Part shown: positions 14,326 through 19,702 of the stretch, piece after piece
Position numbering within the stretch: the stretch's first letter is position 1
Layout: the number at the start of each line of letters is the position of its first letter
Origin: Thioalkalivibrio sp. K90mix
Lineage (GTDB): Bacteria; Pseudomonadota; Gammaproteobacteria; Ectothiorhodospirales; Ectothiorhodospiraceae
Direction of reading: 5' to 3'
Assembly: GCF_000025545.1 (NCBI RefSeq)
Contig: NC_013889.1
Coordinates: 1,667,501 to 1,731,500 of the forward strand
Length of the DNA: 64,000 bases
Position numbers and translations under genes: made by a program
Notes under the pieces: generated by a model
Told to the model about the DNA's origin: nothing
What the model saw: only the letters and a program-made list of their open reading frames with translations
Databases searched by the model: none

Positions 14326-16752
14326 TCAGCCGGCGCGCAGGAATCGCCTCTGCAGTGCACGCCGATCACCCTGAACCGGGCTCACCGTCGGTTCCAGCCG
14401 CCGATCCGCGTACTCGGCCAGCATCCAGAGCATGCGCTCCACGCGGTGGGTGCGCTGCAGCACCCGGTCCAGCGCACCTCCAGGCTGGAAATGATCGGGG
14501 TCGAGGTAGCGGGCGCGCAGGGCATCGAAGCGGCTGCGCTGATTGGCCGTCATGTCGCGTAGCCAGGCCAGGTCTTCGCGATCCCTGGAGTACACGGCCA
14601 TGGTCGCGGCATCCAGCAATCCGCGCAGGGCCTCGAGCACGCGGCCCTCCAGGGCCCGCGCTACCTCGTCGGCCGCGGTCTCCATATCCGTCACAGTCGC
14701 GCGCAGGTGGTCATACATCTGCTGCTCCAGGCGGGCGACCAGCCGGAAGCGATCACGCAGGGCCTCGTGCCGCCGCGCGGCGGCCTCCAGCAGGGGCTCG
14801 CCCGCCAGCCGGCCCAGCTCGGCAAACACCGGCTGCAGCAGGTATTCGAAGTCCTTGTGCAGGCGTTCCAACTCACCGGGATCGACCGGGCGGGCACGCC
14901 CCTCGTCATCCTCGGTAAGGTAGCCGGTCAGACTGGACCAGGCCTCCGGTTCGCGCCGCGCCAGTGCCTCGAGGCGCCGTTCCGGCAGGGTATGCGGGTC
15001 GCCCATCTGCAACGGGTTGGGCCGGCCCCAGTAGAGAACCCCGAGGCGCGCCAGGAACAGCAGCACGATCACTGCATGGGTGGTGATCAGGATGAATCCG
15101 AGGCTCAGCTCGACCGGGGGCCAAAGCAGGATCAGCGAATAGAGAATGCCGCCCAGGACGGAGATCTCGGCGAAGGAGTCGCGCTTGAGCATGTCGATGT
15201 TGAAGTCCGAGCGCACCACATCGCGCATGATCACGCCGAACGAGGCGGTCACCACGGCCATTACCGGGCCCCAGAGCCACAACGGGCTGGCCTGCGACTC
15301 GACGGCCACCCCGACGCCGATCACGGTGAACGAGGCCACCGCCCAGGCATCCAGTCCACGCTGCAGATTCCCCACCACGCGCCCGCCCAATCCCGCCTGC
15401 TGCCGCGTCAGGAGTTCCTGGACGACATGCCAGCGCACCAGTACATGATCGTGCAGCTTGTACAGCACGAAGCCGACGCCCACGACCACGATCGGGACCA
15501 GAAGAAACTCCGGCGTCTCGAAGATAAAGATCGGGTCGCGGCCCAGCAGGAGATCGCGCAGCACGCCGCCGCCGATCGCCGGCAACGAGGCCAGGACCAG
15601 CGCGCCGAACAGGTTGTAACGTTCGCGCCGGGCGAGGATCAGCCCGGAGGCGGAAAAAGCGAGGATCCCCAGCAGGGTGAGCGTATTGAACCAGGCCTCG
15701 CTAGTGGCCATCGAGAGAAACGCGGGCAGCACATGCTCGACTTCCAGCGCGGCCATCCGCCGGCTGTCCTCCAGCGCCTGCAACTGCGCGTTGAACTGCT
15801 CGACGAACGCCGCGGGGACCGTGGCGCGGGAGAACATCACCCGCACGCCAACGGTCCCCAGGTCCAGCGGATGCGTCTGGATCGCACGGGCACGATCGGT
15901 CCGCGCCAGCAGCAGGTCCACAATCACGGGGTCCGCGACAAAGCCGTCGATCCGGCCCTTGATCAGCGCCTGGATATGGGCCTCGTCACCGGCGGCGGGG
16001 TACAGGCGCGCGGCCTCCCCCGGATCCGCGACCAGGTCCGCGAGCTCGCTGGAGGCGTAGGCATAGCCCGTTGTCACCCCCAGCCGGAACTCTCCGTCGC
16101 GAACCGCCTGGACCAGGGCCGCGCGGTCCTGGAATGAATAGTCACCGTGCTCGCCGGCGCGCACATAGAGGGCGTTACGTTCCTGACGGTAGGGCTGCGA
16201 GTAATGCGCATAGTCGAGTCGACCGGAATCAAAATAGGTGCCGATGACAAAATCGATCGCGCCGTGGCGCAGCGCGGCGAGTTGGTCGTTCCAGGAAAGC
16301 GGCGTGAACTCGGCACCCCGCCCGACACCGGCCAGTGCCTCCTGCGCGACCCGCACGTCGAGCCCGGCCGGGGATGCCCGGGATGCGCTGTCGGAACCGG
16401 CCTGATACGGGGGACGTTCGAACCAGCCAGAGCGCAACGTTTCGGGCGCCGATTGCTGCGCGATCGGGATCGGGGTGCCGATATCGGCCGCGGACGGGGG
16501 CGAGGACGCACCGGCCGTGAACGGCGCGAGGATGGCCAGCGCCAACCCCACCCACAGCCCCCCCAGCCAACGCGCAACCCGCGAACGTCGGCCCCGCGGC
16601 CGCTCCCAACCGCTTCTCTGGCGCCACCGCGACGCCCGAATAACGCCCGCCTGACGGCTAGCGCGCGACTGGATGCGCCCGCAGGAACACCTCGGTATGC
16701 TGTCGCCGTCTAAGATCCCCCACGGCCGACTCCCTCCCCATGGACGCTGCAT
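14326..16752 (-). CDS. Fusion: periplasmic solute-binding domain (SBP family 3) + TRIC/UPF0126 channel domain + helical C-terminus
   Basis: A ~808-residue protein with an unusual domain order. A hydrophobic signal or anchor segment (~63-83) is followed by a family-3 solute-binding domain (~105-345; DFVIGTYFDSGRLDYAHYS is a typical stretch). A membrane domain (~355-575) contains two UPF0126/TRIC repeats, marked by IGGGVLRDLLLGRDP (~395) and SFGVIMRDVVRSD (~507). A charged, helical cytoplasmic tail of about 220 residues follows, vaguely PhoU-like. TRIC proteins are known cation channels, so this may be a ligand-gated channel or a receptor; that is inference. The start is uncertain: ATG 16752 or GTG 16758 both leave some 60 residues before the signal segment and both overlap the divergent gene at 16740. 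Confidence 0.75.
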   Translation of the reverse strand: MQRPWGGSRPWGILDGDSIPRCSCGRIQSRASRQAGVIRASRWRQRSGWERPRGRRSRVARWLGGLWVGLALAILAPFTAGASSPPSAADIGTPIPIAQQSAPETLRSGWFERPPYQAGSDSASRASPAGLDVRVAQEALAGVGRGAEFTPLSWNDQLAALRHGAIDFVIGTYFDSGRLDYAHYSQPYRQERNALYVRAGEHGDYSFQDRAALVQAVRDGEFRLGVTTGYAYASSELADLVADPGEAARLYPAAGDEAHIQALIKGRIDGFVADPVIVDLLLARTDRARAIQTHPLDLGTVGVRVMFSRATVPAAFVEQFNAQLQALEDSRRMAALEVEHVLPAFLSMATSEAWFNTLTLLGILAFSASGLILARRERYNLFGALVLASLPAIGGGVLRDLLLGRDPIFIFETPEFLLVPIVVVGVGFVLYKLHDHVLVRWHVVQELLTRQQAGLGGRVVGNLQRGLDAWAVASFTVIGVGVAVESQASPLWLWGPVMAVVTASFGVIMRDVVRSDFNIDMLKRDSFAEISVLGGILYSLILLWPPVELSLGFILITTHAVIVLLFLARLGVLYWGRPNPLQMGDPHTLPERRLEALARREPEAWSSLTGYLTEDDEGRARPVDPGELERLHKDFEYLLQPVFAELGRLAGEPLLEAAARRHEALRDRFRLVARLEQQMYDHLRATVTDMETAADEVARALEGRVLEALRGLLDAATMAVYSRDREDLAWLRDMTANQRSRFDALRARYLDPDHFQPGGALDRVLQRTHRVERMLWMLAEYADRRLEPTVSPVQGDRRALQRRFLRAG

Positions 16753-17756
16753 ACGCACGATTCCCCAACTCTGCGGCCCATGGTCTGGGTTCCAACCTGC
16801 GCCGTGTAGTCGCCCTGGCGGCTGTCCTGCTTCTGTGCGCCAGCACTGCGATGGCCGACACGCAGACCCTGCGCTTTCAGCCCCATTGGGTCCCCCAGGC
16901 GCAGTTCGCCGGCTTTTACCTGGCCAAGGAGATGGGGTGGTACCAGGACGCCGGACTGGAACTGGAAATCCTCCCGCACGGCGCGGAGCACCCCGCCCCC
17001 GCGACGCTGGCCCGCCAGGAGGCCGATGTGGCTTTGCTCTACCTCACCCAGGCCCTGGAATTGCGTGAACAGGGCGTGGACGTGGTCAACGTAGCACAAC
17101 TGATCCAGGACTCCTCTCTAGTGCTGGTATCGCTGGCGGAGTCCGGGATCCTGGTGCCCGAAGACCTGGACGGGCAGCGCGTCTCGCGCTGGGCCAGCTT
17201 CAGCCTTCAGCCGGAGGCGTTGTTCCGCACCTACGGGGTGCACCCCGACACGGTCGACCAGGGGGCGACGATGGCCGCATTGCGCACCGGTGCGGTCGCG
17301 GCCGCCACCGCCACGCGCTACAACGAACTGGTCGAGCTGTATCTCAGCGGTCTGGATCCGGACGAGATCGAGGTGATGCCGCTAGAGGATCACGGCGTGG
17401 GCCTGGCCGAGGACGGGATCTATGTCCTGGAGTCGACATTGCGCGAACGCCCCGAAGCCGTCCGCACGTTCGTCGAGGTCTCACTGCGGGGCTGGGAGTA
17501 CGCGTTTGCCCATCCGGACGCCGCAGTGGACGCGGTGATGGATCGCGTCATCCAGGCCGGCGAGCCGACCAATCGGGCGCACCAGCGTCTGATGCTGGAG
17601 GCGCTGCGCCCGCTGTATCTGGAAGACGAGGCGCTCCGCGGTCCGCACCTGGATCGGCAGGACTACCAGCTGGCCGTCAGTCTGATGCGCAACCTGGGGC
17701 ACCTGGAATGGGAGCCGGTGCCGTACGAACAGTTTCACCAGGACGTGACGCAATGA
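16740..17756 (+). CDS. NMT1/THI5-like periplasmic substrate-binding protein
   Basis: A 338-residue binding protein of the family that includes SsuA, TauA and ThiY. A signal peptide at ~22-40 (VVALAAVLLLCASTAMA) is followed by the typical opening FQPHWVPQAQFAGFYLAKEMGWYQ with the first residues split by the family pattern of ligand-contacting aromatic residues. No ABC permease or ATPase is nearby. Its stop overlaps the start of a Cache-HAMP-SpoIIE phosphatase gene as ATGA, so it may serve as the periplasmic receptor of that sensor rather than as a transporter component. The ligand is unknown; pyrimidines, sulfonates or nitriles are typical of the family. Confidence 0.88.
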   Translation: MDAAYARFPNSAAHGLGSNLRRVVALAAVLLLCASTAMADTQTLRFQPHWVPQAQFAGFYLAKEMGWYQDAGLELEILPHGAEHPAPATLARQEADVALLYLTQALELREQGVDVVNVAQLIQDSSLVLVSLAESGILVPEDLDGQRVSRWASFSLQPEALFRTYGVHPDTVDQGATMAALRTGAVAAATATRYNELVELYLSGLDPDEIEVMPLEDHGVGLAEDGIYVLESTLRERPEAVRTFVEVSLRGWEYAFAHPDAAVDAVMDRVIQAGEPTNRAHQRLMLEALRPLYLEDEALRGPHLDRQDYQLAVSLMRNLGHLEWEPVPYEQFHQDVTQ

Positions 17757-19702
17757 ACGGCCGCAAGAGCCTCGCCGTCCGCCTCGCCCTGGTCACCCTG
17801 CTGACGACCGGGTCGATCTTCTTCATCTCCTCCGGCGCGCTGTACCTGATGGTGCGCGATATCATGCTGGAGCACGCCGAGGACCAGGCGCGCGAGCTGA
17901 CCCACGCGACGGCCAACCGCATCCGCTCGTCACTGAACGAGGTGGCCGGGTCGGCACAAGGCCTCGCCAGCGCCCTGAATTCGGGACAGATTCGACCCGA
18001 CGGCCTGTTTCCCGTGCTGGACAACGTGACGCTCCAGTCGGACGCGGTCCAGGGCGCCGCCGTGACCTACGAGCCCTATGCCGCCGACCCCGACGAGCGC
18101 TACTACGGCCCATTCTCCTACGAGACGCTCAACGGCATCGCGCGCATGCACCTGGGCGGCGACGACTTCGACTACTTTACCCGGGACTGGTACCAGATCC
18201 CGGCACTCACGCGCAGCGGCTTCTGGACCGAGCCCTTTCCATCGGCCGCCGACCCCAACCGCCTGATCACCACCTACTCGCGCCCGTTCTTCGACCCCGA
18301 CGACGCCGAGGCACTGCGCGGGATCGTGACCATGGACATCGAACTGCCGGCCCTGACCGCGCGCGTGGACGAGGTGGAGATCTTCGACAGCGGCTTTGCG
18401 TTTCTGGTCAGCCCGCGTACGCGCTTTATCACCTATCCACAGCGCGACTGGATCATGCGCGAGAGCCTGTTCAGCCTGGCCGAAACCCTGGGCGAGCCGG
18501 AACTGCGCGAACTCGGACGGCGCATCCAGCAAACCGACGAAGGCTTCTCCCGCGTGCCGGAGGCCCTGCTGGAGGAACCCGCCCGGCTCTATCACGTGCG
18601 CCTGCCCGAGGCGAACTGGGCGGTGGGCGTGATCATCCCCGAGCGCGAACTGTTCGGGGATATCCTGCGGGTGATGCACTGGGTGCTGATCATCGCCGCG
18701 ATCGGCTTCTTCATCCTGCTCGGCACCATCATCGGTATCTCGCGCGGCATCACCCGCCCGCTGAAGGGCCTGGCGAGCAGCGCCGGCGAGATCGCCCGCG
18801 GCAATCTGGACCGCCCGCTGCCGCCGATCCGCACCGGCGACGAGGTGGGCCAGCTCGCCCACTCGCTGGACGAGATGCGCCTGTCGCTGAAGGACTACAT
18901 CAACGACCTGACCGCGACCACCGCCGCCAAGGAGCGCATGGAGAGCGAGCTGAAGATCGCGCGCAACATCCAGATGAGCTTCCTGCCCAAGCGACTGGAC
19001 CTGTCCGACCTGGATGTGGGTATCGACCTCGCGGCCCGCCTGATCCCGGCCAAGGAGGTCGGCGGTGATCTCTACGACTTCTTCCCCCTGCGCGAGCACA
19101 ACGCCCTGTTCTTCGCGGTCGGCGATGTCTCCGACAAGGGCGTTCCCGCCGCGCTGTTCATGGCCGTGACCAAGACCCTGGTCAAGGGTATCGCCGAGCA
19201 GGACCCGCGCGACCCGGGCGAGATCCTGACCCGAGTCAACAACGAGCTGTGCCTGAACAACGACAACGGCATGTTCGTGACCTACCTGTGCGGGGTGCTG
19301 GACCTGGGCACCGGCGAGGTCCGCTTTGCCAACGCCGGCCACAACCCGCCGTTGATCCACCGCGCCGATGGCACCTACGACTGGCTGAAGCTGCCGCCTG
19401 GGCTGGTGCTGGGGGCGATGGAAGACATGGAGTACCCGGTGCAGACCGTCCGCCTGGCGCCCGGTGATGCGTTGCTGCTGTATACCGACGGGGTGACCGA
19501 GGCAGCGGACGGGGAGCAGAAGCTGTATGACGAGGATCGGCTGTTCGCCTTGTACGGGGAGATCGCATCCCAGCCAGCACGACAGCAAGTCGACGCGGTG
19601 CTGGAGTCCGTCGAGCGTTTCGCGGATGGTGCTACACAGGCGGATGACATTACCGTGCTGGCGCTGCGTTACTGCCCGGGGGATGGGGAATGCGCCAGAT
19701 GA
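17753..19702 (+). CDS. Membrane sensor phosphatase: Cache-like domain, HAMP, SpoIIE/PP2C (RsbU-like)
   Basis: A 649-residue membrane protein. An N-terminal helix (~10-32), a periplasmic Cache-type sensor region (~35-300), a second helix (~307-329), a HAMP domain (~330-385) and a C-terminal SpoIIE-type PP2C serine phosphatase (~400-645) follow in order. Phosphatase motifs include AKEVGGDLYDFF, AVGDVSDKG, FANAGHNPPL, LLLYTDGVTEA and QADDITVLALR, with the metal-binding Asp residues in place. Such proteins usually dephosphorylate a STAS anti-sigma-factor antagonist, but none is encoded nearby. The ATG at 17753 overlaps the stop of the binding-protein gene by four bases, implying coupled translation. 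A longer frame from 17708 is less likely. Confidence 0.9.
   Translation: MNGRKSLAVRLALVTLLTTGSIFFISSGALYLMVRDIMLEHAEDQARELTHATANRIRSSLNEVAGSAQGLASALNSGQIRPDGLFPVLDNVTLQSDAVQGAAVTYEPYAADPDERYYGPFSYETLNGIARMHLGGDDFDYFTRDWYQIPALTRSGFWTEPFPSAADPNRLITTYSRPFFDPDDAEALRGIVTMDIELPALTARVDEVEIFDSGFAFLVSPRTRFITYPQRDWIMRESLFSLAETLGEPELRELGRRIQQTDEGFSRVPEALLEEPARLYHVRLPEANWAVGVIIPERELFGDILRVMHWVLIIAAIGFFILLGTIIGISRGITRPLKGLASSAGEIARGNLDRPLPPIRTGDEVGQLAHSLDEMRLSLKDYINDLTATTAAKERMESELKIARNIQMSFLPKRLDLSDLDVGIDLAARLIPAKEVGGDLYDFFPLREHNALFFAVGDVSDKGVPAALFMAVTKTLVKGIAEQDPRDPGEILTRVNNELCLNNDNGMFVTYLCGVLDLGTGEVRFANAGHNPPLIHRADGTYDWLKLPPGLVLGAMEDMEYPVQTVRLAPGDALLLYTDGVTEAADGEQKLYDEDRLFALYGEIASQPARQQVDAVLESVERFADGATQADDITVLALRYCPGDGECAR

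Follow-up and report, generated by a model that had tools for sequence, protein, structure and literature searches.

The window analysed here, a stretch of 64,000 nucleotides from Thioalkalivibrio sp. K90mix (contig NC_013889.1, positions 1,667,501 to 1,731,500), encodes a periplasmic binding protein of the NMT1/THI5-like family and, directly after it, a membrane phosphatase with a dCache sensor domain, a HAMP domain and a SpoIIE domain (Table 1). The genome that holds the window measures 2.99 Mb, and among named organisms the closest relatives of the binding protein come from Thioalkalivibrio strains. An earlier note on this DNA had described an NMT1-type gene overlapping, as ATGA, the gene of a Cache-HAMP-SpoIIE phosphatase. 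Both open reading frames (ORFs) were recovered where it had placed them, and Pfam agrees on their domains. The phosphatase is taken to start at the ATG inside the overlap, its frame itself being open earlier, from 17708. The start codon of the binding protein is provisional because a divergent ORF (14326-16758) overlaps the beginning of the gene on paper.

Table 1. Features of the gene pair (positions in the window) and of its STAS and kinase partners (positions on contig C1 of the same genome, G000). TM, transmembrane helix.
Feature	Position	Strand	Details
NMT1/THI5-fold periplasmic binding protein gene, first of the pair	16740..17756	+	338 aa
Probable signal peptide, residues 1-39, cleavage after AMA	16740..16856	+	Assigned by eye; helix 17-35 in the model; inference
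ATGA start/stop overlap of the two genes	17753..17756	+	Sequence
Membrane phosphatase receptor gene, second of the pair	17753..19702	+	649 aa; TM - dCache - TM - HAMP - SpoIIE/PP2C
Periplasmic dCache sensor domain, residues ~36-305	17858..18667	+	MCP-like_PDC_1 E=2.3e-19; Foldseek 3lib TMt 0.81-0.84
HAMP domain, residues 329-380	18737..18892	+	PF00672 E=1.4e-14
SpoIIE phosphatase domain, Pfam residues 450-639	19100..19669	+	PF07228 E=1.5e-55
RsbV-like STAS protein, 111 aa	G000:C1:1990673-1991005		PF01740 E=4.9e-19
RsbW-like HATPase_c_2 kinase	G000:C1:1991076-1991489		PF13581 E=4.1e-26

The binding protein belongs to the NMT1/THI5-like family by its Pfam match (PF09084 NMT1, E=1.6e-41, 143 bits against a cut-off of 20.5). 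Its AlphaFold2 model has a mean predicted local distance difference test score (pLDDT) of 93.7, and the best matching folds in the PDB are 4nmy, a thiamin-bound protein, and 3ix1, which binds a formyl-aminopyrimidine; the THI5 fold was matched too.

In the phosphatase, Pfam recognizes all three domains of Table 1, the sensor through the MCP-like_PDC_1 family, while the match to dCache_1 (39 bits) stays below the cut-off of 45. The AlphaFold2 model (pLDDT 84.3) has a predicted TM-score (pTM) of 0.50, so that the placement of the domains relative to one another is unsure; its long helices suggest the two transmembrane helices. Fold searches returned one integrative chemoreceptor model, followed by dCache domains (3lib and 3li9) and PP2C phosphatases (6k4e SiaA, 3f79 RssB and 3ke6). 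The protein was aligned with its homologues from 48 of the 53 loci that encode a long SpoIIE receptor. Asp458, Asp579 and Asp439, the last lying just before the stretch covered by Pfam, are invariant in these 49 sequences, and Asp631/Asp632 nearly so; we take these residues to be the metal-binding aspartates of the SpoIIE domain. With a SpoIIE domain, conserved aspartates and a sensor input ahead of them, the protein is an RsbU-like SpoIIE/PP2C sensor phosphatase.

The association of the two genes is conserved. Among 77 genomes, our own included, the binding protein had 20 matches in 17 genomes (E<=1e-10). The ten strongest (at least 139 bits, 35-100% identity, one in each of ten genomes) are all followed directly by a phosphatase homologue. 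None of the ten weaker matches (at most 111 bits, 27-38% identity) has such a homologue directly after it, one of them being a 97-residue piece (38% identity) at a contig end in G040, where the pairing is not readable. In the same genomes, a SpoIIE domain occurs within about 3 kb of only 10 of 134 NMT1 matches (E<=1e-5; 134 being the summed match counts). According to a comparison by eye, these are the very ten strongest matches of the binding protein. Since all ten belong to this subfamily, the pairing is not due to chance.

The conserved adjacency that the earlier note had proposed to look for extends far beyond the genus. We scanned contigs of 84,980 species and analysed the best 80 of 189 relatives, searching all ORFs of these 80 loci with hidden Markov models (HMMs) built from the related set. 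In 80 of 80 loci, a dCache receptor ORF stands directly after the binding-protein ORF on the same strand, with a median gap of 1.5 nt (range -8 to 76, estimated up to where the HMM match begins). Six loci (L052-L057) come from strains that are also among the 77 genomes. Judging from record titles and tree labels, the loci span a dozen or more phyla and include many metagenome bins. In a tree of 117 binding proteins, the paired proteins form a group of 79 rows (SH-aLRT support 96), and 29 transporter-linked proteins form a separate group (98); the tree was made with a quick method without bootstrap, and several long branches occur among the remaining rows. The 79 rows comprise the window protein, the proteins of 76 of the 80 loci (L052, L086, L118 and L119 were dropped) and those of L042 and L043.

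The input side of these receptors is constant and their outputs change. Across the 80 loci, 61 receptors end in a SpoIIE domain, ten in a class III cyclase, three in HisKA and three in an MCP domain, the remaining three (L063, L067 and L097) being cut by contig ends; in L093, the MCP domain sits in the next ORF, in another frame. All 16 readable non-SpoIIE receptors were confirmed in Pfam. The 61 SpoIIE calls come from our own HMM, that of L117 alone being also confirmed in Pfam; five of these receptors are cut by contig ends, and the call in L130 covers only 31 residues (E=5e-5). By parsimony, the output label changes six times on the binding-protein tree. For the SpoIIE label, three changes are forced by well-supported branches, with bootstrap not yet settled. 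In the 50 of 80 loci where all three domains were readable, pairwise distances of the binding protein and the Cache domain had a rank correlation of 0.84, compared with 0.57 for the binding protein and the SpoIIE domain and 0.55 for the Cache and SpoIIE domains of the same chain; for none of the three did any of 2000 permutations reach as high a value. Such correlated divergence fits a contact between the binding protein and the Cache domain, short of proof.

The earlier note had seen no STAS antagonist nearby and supposed that the target of the phosphatase was encoded elsewhere. Indeed, none of the genome's six STAS matches lies inside the window, and a STAS gene and a HATPase kinase gene, adjoining each other, were located about 303 kb from the pair (Table 1). 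The STAS protein consists of a stand-alone domain with a conserved Ser54, as in RsbV-like antagonists; this residue, presumably the phosphorylated serine by analogy with SpoIIAA, is kept in all 38 aligned sequences. The kinase is a stand-alone HATPase_c_2 domain with N-box and G-boxes, as in RsbW-like kinases. Its N-box Asn48 is present in 30 of 31 sequences, the remaining one having a gap, and Gly-Gly-Leu-Gly is mostly kept.

These two proteins are genomic partners of the pair. Within the genus (30 genomes), both were found in seven of the eight genomes with the pair and in none of the 22 without it; the pair-bearing genome that lacks them (G019) is 66% complete, and six of the 22 pairless genomes are at most 80% complete. 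In G025 and G011, the STAS and kinase genes are found a short way downstream of the phosphatase gene, in convergent orientation to it. In two further genomes all four genes share one strand, in the order kinase, STAS, binding protein and phosphatase (G033) or STAS, binding protein, phosphatase and kinase (G042). In the wide sample, STAS and/or kinase were encoded within 1.5 kb of the receptor or fused to it in 42 of the 61 SpoIIE loci (27 with both, nine with STAS only and six with kinase only), against one of the 19 non-SpoIIE loci, whose receptor is truncated at the contig edge. In four receptors the kinase is fused to the C-terminus of the phosphatase, as Pfam confirmed for L117.

A fixed fifth gene that could act as the output was not found: after clustering of 469 neighbour ORFs, no cluster occurred in more than eight of the 80 loci, the largest being of ATP-binding cassette (ABC) ATPases. 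Some neighbours were noted individually. ORFs of 178-197 aa near the module in L097, L123, L127 and L129, three of them in Bacteroidota, resemble extracytoplasmic function (ECF) sigma factors by eye and are a possible output. In L062, L084, L086, L088 and L116, an ORF (315-338 aa) resembling a metallo-hydrolase by eye lies less than 4 kb from the module. Downstream of the STAS and kinase genes of our own genome, a PAS-GGDEF-EAL protein (L046:517-4065, minus strand) is a candidate output.

We propose that the products of the two genes together form a single receptor, made of two polypeptides, in which the ligand-loaded binding protein probably gates a phosphatase that drives partner switching. 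The NMT1-type protein would be secreted to the periplasm and capture a small ligand, the best guess for which is a pyrimidine-type ring. Once loaded, it would dock on the membrane-bound phosphatase at its dCache domain, and the change would pass via the HAMP domain to switch the cytoplasmic SpoIIE domain. The latter is predicted to dephosphorylate Ser54 of the distantly encoded RsbV-like STAS protein, which may then alter its binding to the RsbW-like kinase of the adjoining gene, whereby the kinase's own target would be freed or captured.

Several observations weigh against this proposal. The wide conservation rests on the best 80 of 189 relatives. Twelve of the 61 SpoIIE loci have at least 1.5 kb on both sides and yielded neither STAS nor kinase nearby, three of these 12 being strains that carry both elsewhere. 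The switch core also occurs apart from this sensor: in G030 and G032, the paired binding protein is missing although both genomes encode STAS, kinase and SpoIIE proteins. The distance correlation is no proof of contact because shared ancestry and rates are uncorrected in it. Finally, the dCache domain may bind a ligand itself, since it keeps Trp146 (49 of 49 sequences), Tyr147 (45 of 49) and Asp195 (46 of 49), residues matched by eye to those of the pocket of amino-acid and amine dCache domains.

The sign of the ligand effect is not fixed by anything in the sequence. The phosphatase could be held in one state by the empty binding protein and set free when the ligand binds, a reading with the same architecture and the opposite logic, which we regard as unlikely, while nothing direct counts against it. 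A precedent is described in PMC7584622, where LuxP bound to autoinducer-2 (AI-2) turns its partner kinase LuxQ to phosphatase mode; a ligand can thus lower the forward activity of the partner.

The residues kept by the dCache domain bear on another reading, namely that ligand sensing is done by this domain on its own, the binding protein having no other part than to supply, buffer or remove the ligand, so that contact would be unnecessary. Among dCache domains of solved structure, ligand binding is common, and the ligand of one (9hvj) is uracil. A paper on Chlamydia, cited in the reference list of PMC8256260, reports in its title that the periplasmic domain of RsbU binds a ligand directly. Set against this, the position equivalent to the amino-acid-binding Arg126 of the dCache motif holds an arginine in only eight of 49 sequences. 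The window protein is among them, with Arg144, but has Phe at the Tyr121 position (columns of dCache_1AA matched by eye; roles of the Arg, Trp, Tyr and Asp of this motif as given in PMC10104139). Moreover, the constant pairing of one group of binding proteins with dCache domains and the correlation of 0.84 fit contact better than mere supply. Direct sensing, with the binding protein only supplying the ligand, appears unlikely.

Binding proteins of this family normally feed transporters, as the nearest non-paired relatives illustrate. The A2 model matched in 116 of 398 genomes of the phylum (E<=1e-25), and the 29 best after our own are all permease-linked and none is paired. These 29 control loci, those of the nearest non-paired binding proteins of the 398 genomes, all encode one class of permease, for which an HMM was built from ten Pfam-confirmed proteins of nine of them. 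This class was found in none of the 80 paired loci, being the only permease class sought systematically there, and the 47 genomes of our own family all lack it at E<=1e-20. The earlier note had named a co-varying permease elsewhere as the observation that would speak against its proposal, and none of this class emerged; its other refuting condition, a gene pair that is not conserved among related genomes, did not apply either. It had also described the pair as free of ABC genes; the window has no match to the HMM of the cognate permease class or to one ABC ATPase query, other permease classes not having been sought. A role as the binding protein of an ABC importer is thus disfavoured, there being no cognate permease class in the paired loci or in the own-family genomes, and it is very improbable that the binding protein serves a permease encoded elsewhere and adjoins the phosphatase gene only for co-regulation.

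ORFs resembling ABC ATPases occur in seven of the 80 paired loci with one query, and clustering added L058. Six such loci were read in Pfam. The ATPases of L103 and L123 are of exporter types and that of L094 is of the Wzt type; ATPase domains were recognized in L063 and L067, where the neighbours were judged by eye; and in L130 the ATPase belongs to a complete importer, with a PF04392 binding protein of its own, that precedes the pair. Immediately ahead of the pair, this last stretch (L130:1-5870) comprises an ORF with PF04392 units, a separate protein that carries a STAS domain, and further ORFs for a permease-like protein (by eye) and an ABC ATPase.

The transporter relatives offer a clue to the ligand. 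The paired group has 27 columns conserved in at least 95% of its sequences; in 23 of these, 90% or more of the 29 transporter relatives carry the same residue. By comparison, the commonest residue agrees in 115 of all 287 columns, and the window protein is 28-34% identical to these relatives. The shared residues, which include Trp50, Gln53, Gln55, Phe56, Gln120, Trp151, Tyr194, Asn195, Glu196, Glu224, Asp225, Trp252 and His281, would line the ligand pocket, judging from conservation and fold. Within 10 to 15 kb control stretches, a dihydropyrimidinase-like protein is encoded in 24 of 29, an amidase of the hydantoinase/carbamoylase type in 24 and a TetR-type protein in 11. For one representative of each, NCBIfam placed the dihydropyrimidinase and the amidase over their cut-offs and RutR below. 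The importer-linked proteins near dihydropyrimidinase, all from Pseudomonadota, share the 23 columns with the paired group and differ in having ABC permeases beside them (29 of 29) and no dCache receptor. A pyrimidine-type ligand is our best guess and a tentative one, because 22 of the 29 controls belong to one family (f83), which has dihydropyrimidinase in 20 of 22 controls against four of seven in other families, and because dihydropyrimidinase was not found in L154 and L178, which branch off first within the control group.

NMT1 domains were also seen in long frames of 500-778 aa (L026-L029 and L032-L034), several of which have ends that look GGDEF-like by eye. In these, as in the pair, the NMT1 domain is a likely sensor input, whereas they stand on separate branches of the tree and, with L025 added to make eight rows, share only nine of the 27 invariant residues of the paired group. 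The tree label "fused" covers L025 and L030, for which it is provisional, and L031 was too short for the tree.

Receptors switched by solute-binding proteins (SBPs) include, in the available part of PMC9602780, chemoreceptors, sensor kinases, diguanylate cyclases/phosphodiesterases and Ser/Thr kinases. The pair resembles them in joining a periplasmic binding protein to a transmembrane receptor that could offer its outer domain as the docking site, the coupling here being genomic only. It differs in that no Ser/Thr phosphatase is listed in that part of the source, whereas the SpoIIE phosphatase is the commonest output here, and in that its binding protein comes from a group that lacks the permease of the relatives. 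dCache_1 domains on SpoIIE serine phosphatases have already been described (PMC7584622); in the available part of that source they are treated as direct ligand binders, with no mention of a binding-protein partner. A literature search that was thin on subscription journals found no paper whose title joins a binding protein to a SpoIIE phosphatase. The partner-switching mechanism that SpoIIE, STAS and HATPase proteins carry out is a familiar one. As in RsbU-RsbV-RsbW, a SpoIIE phosphatase, a STAS protein with a conserved serine and an HATPase_c_2 kinase occur together; in contrast, the input here is a periplasmic binding protein with a dCache domain, and the cognate sigma factor was not identified. 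What is new is the combination, while SBP-switched receptors, dCache-SpoIIE proteins and partner switching are known.

If the proposal is true, phosphatases join the receptor types that binding proteins switch, and SpoIIE phosphatases gain a partner-mediated reading of extracellular small molecules, with a ligand class and a phospho-target that are named and testable in a soda-lake bacterium. The four outputs swapped onto one conserved input pair are also natural chimeras for sensor building. In its widest form, the picture is a possible one that we put forward with reserve: a pyrimidine-sensing binding protein, sister to that of a pyrimidine importer, would gate the phosphatase and form with the dCache-HAMP part an old, exchangeable input unit, placed on phosphatase, cyclase, histidine kinase and chemotaxis outputs in a dozen or more phyla, in addition to a second, unrelated binding-protein/phosphatase operon in the genus that encodes SBP_bac_3, SiaB-SiaC, GGDEF and SpoIIE proteins.

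SiaA of Pseudomonas aeruginosa (SiaABCD) is another membrane phosphatase with HAMP and PP2C domains, and its structure 6k4e is among the best fold matches. An assignment of the window phosphatase as SiaA was rejected (NCBIfam NF038263, 85.4 bits against an equivalog cut-off of 700). It also differs from SiaA in having no SiaB or SiaC gene among the neighbours read, a separate SiaBC-type operon being present in the same genome. There, a second orphan binding protein accompanies a SpoIIE phosphatase (L045:5623-9940; G000:C1, ~1565.6-1569.9 kb), in a run of overlapping genes for SBP_bac_3, a SiaB-like DUF6272 protein, SiaC, GGDEF and SpoIIE. In L190 (G012), one of nine same-genus loci read, the matches to SpoIIE, SBP_bac_3 and GGDEF are distant (30-38%) and SiaB and SiaC were not found, and in other genera (L191-L193) SiaB, SiaC and SpoIIE are present without the five-gene arrangement. 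The gene order is kept in the other eight same-genus loci (L182-L189).

The divergent neighbour of the pair (14326-16758, minus strand) encodes a protein in which two Gly_transporter units are joined to an SBP_bac_3 domain. It lies beside the pair in seven of the eight genus loci, G021 being the exception, and in L059 (Opitutales), and was not found beside the pair in G033 or G042. Because it is not kept at all pair loci, it was dropped as a part of the mechanism. The C-terminal part of its product is 27% identical to the same part of a Na/Pi cotransporter that adjoins the pair in G033.

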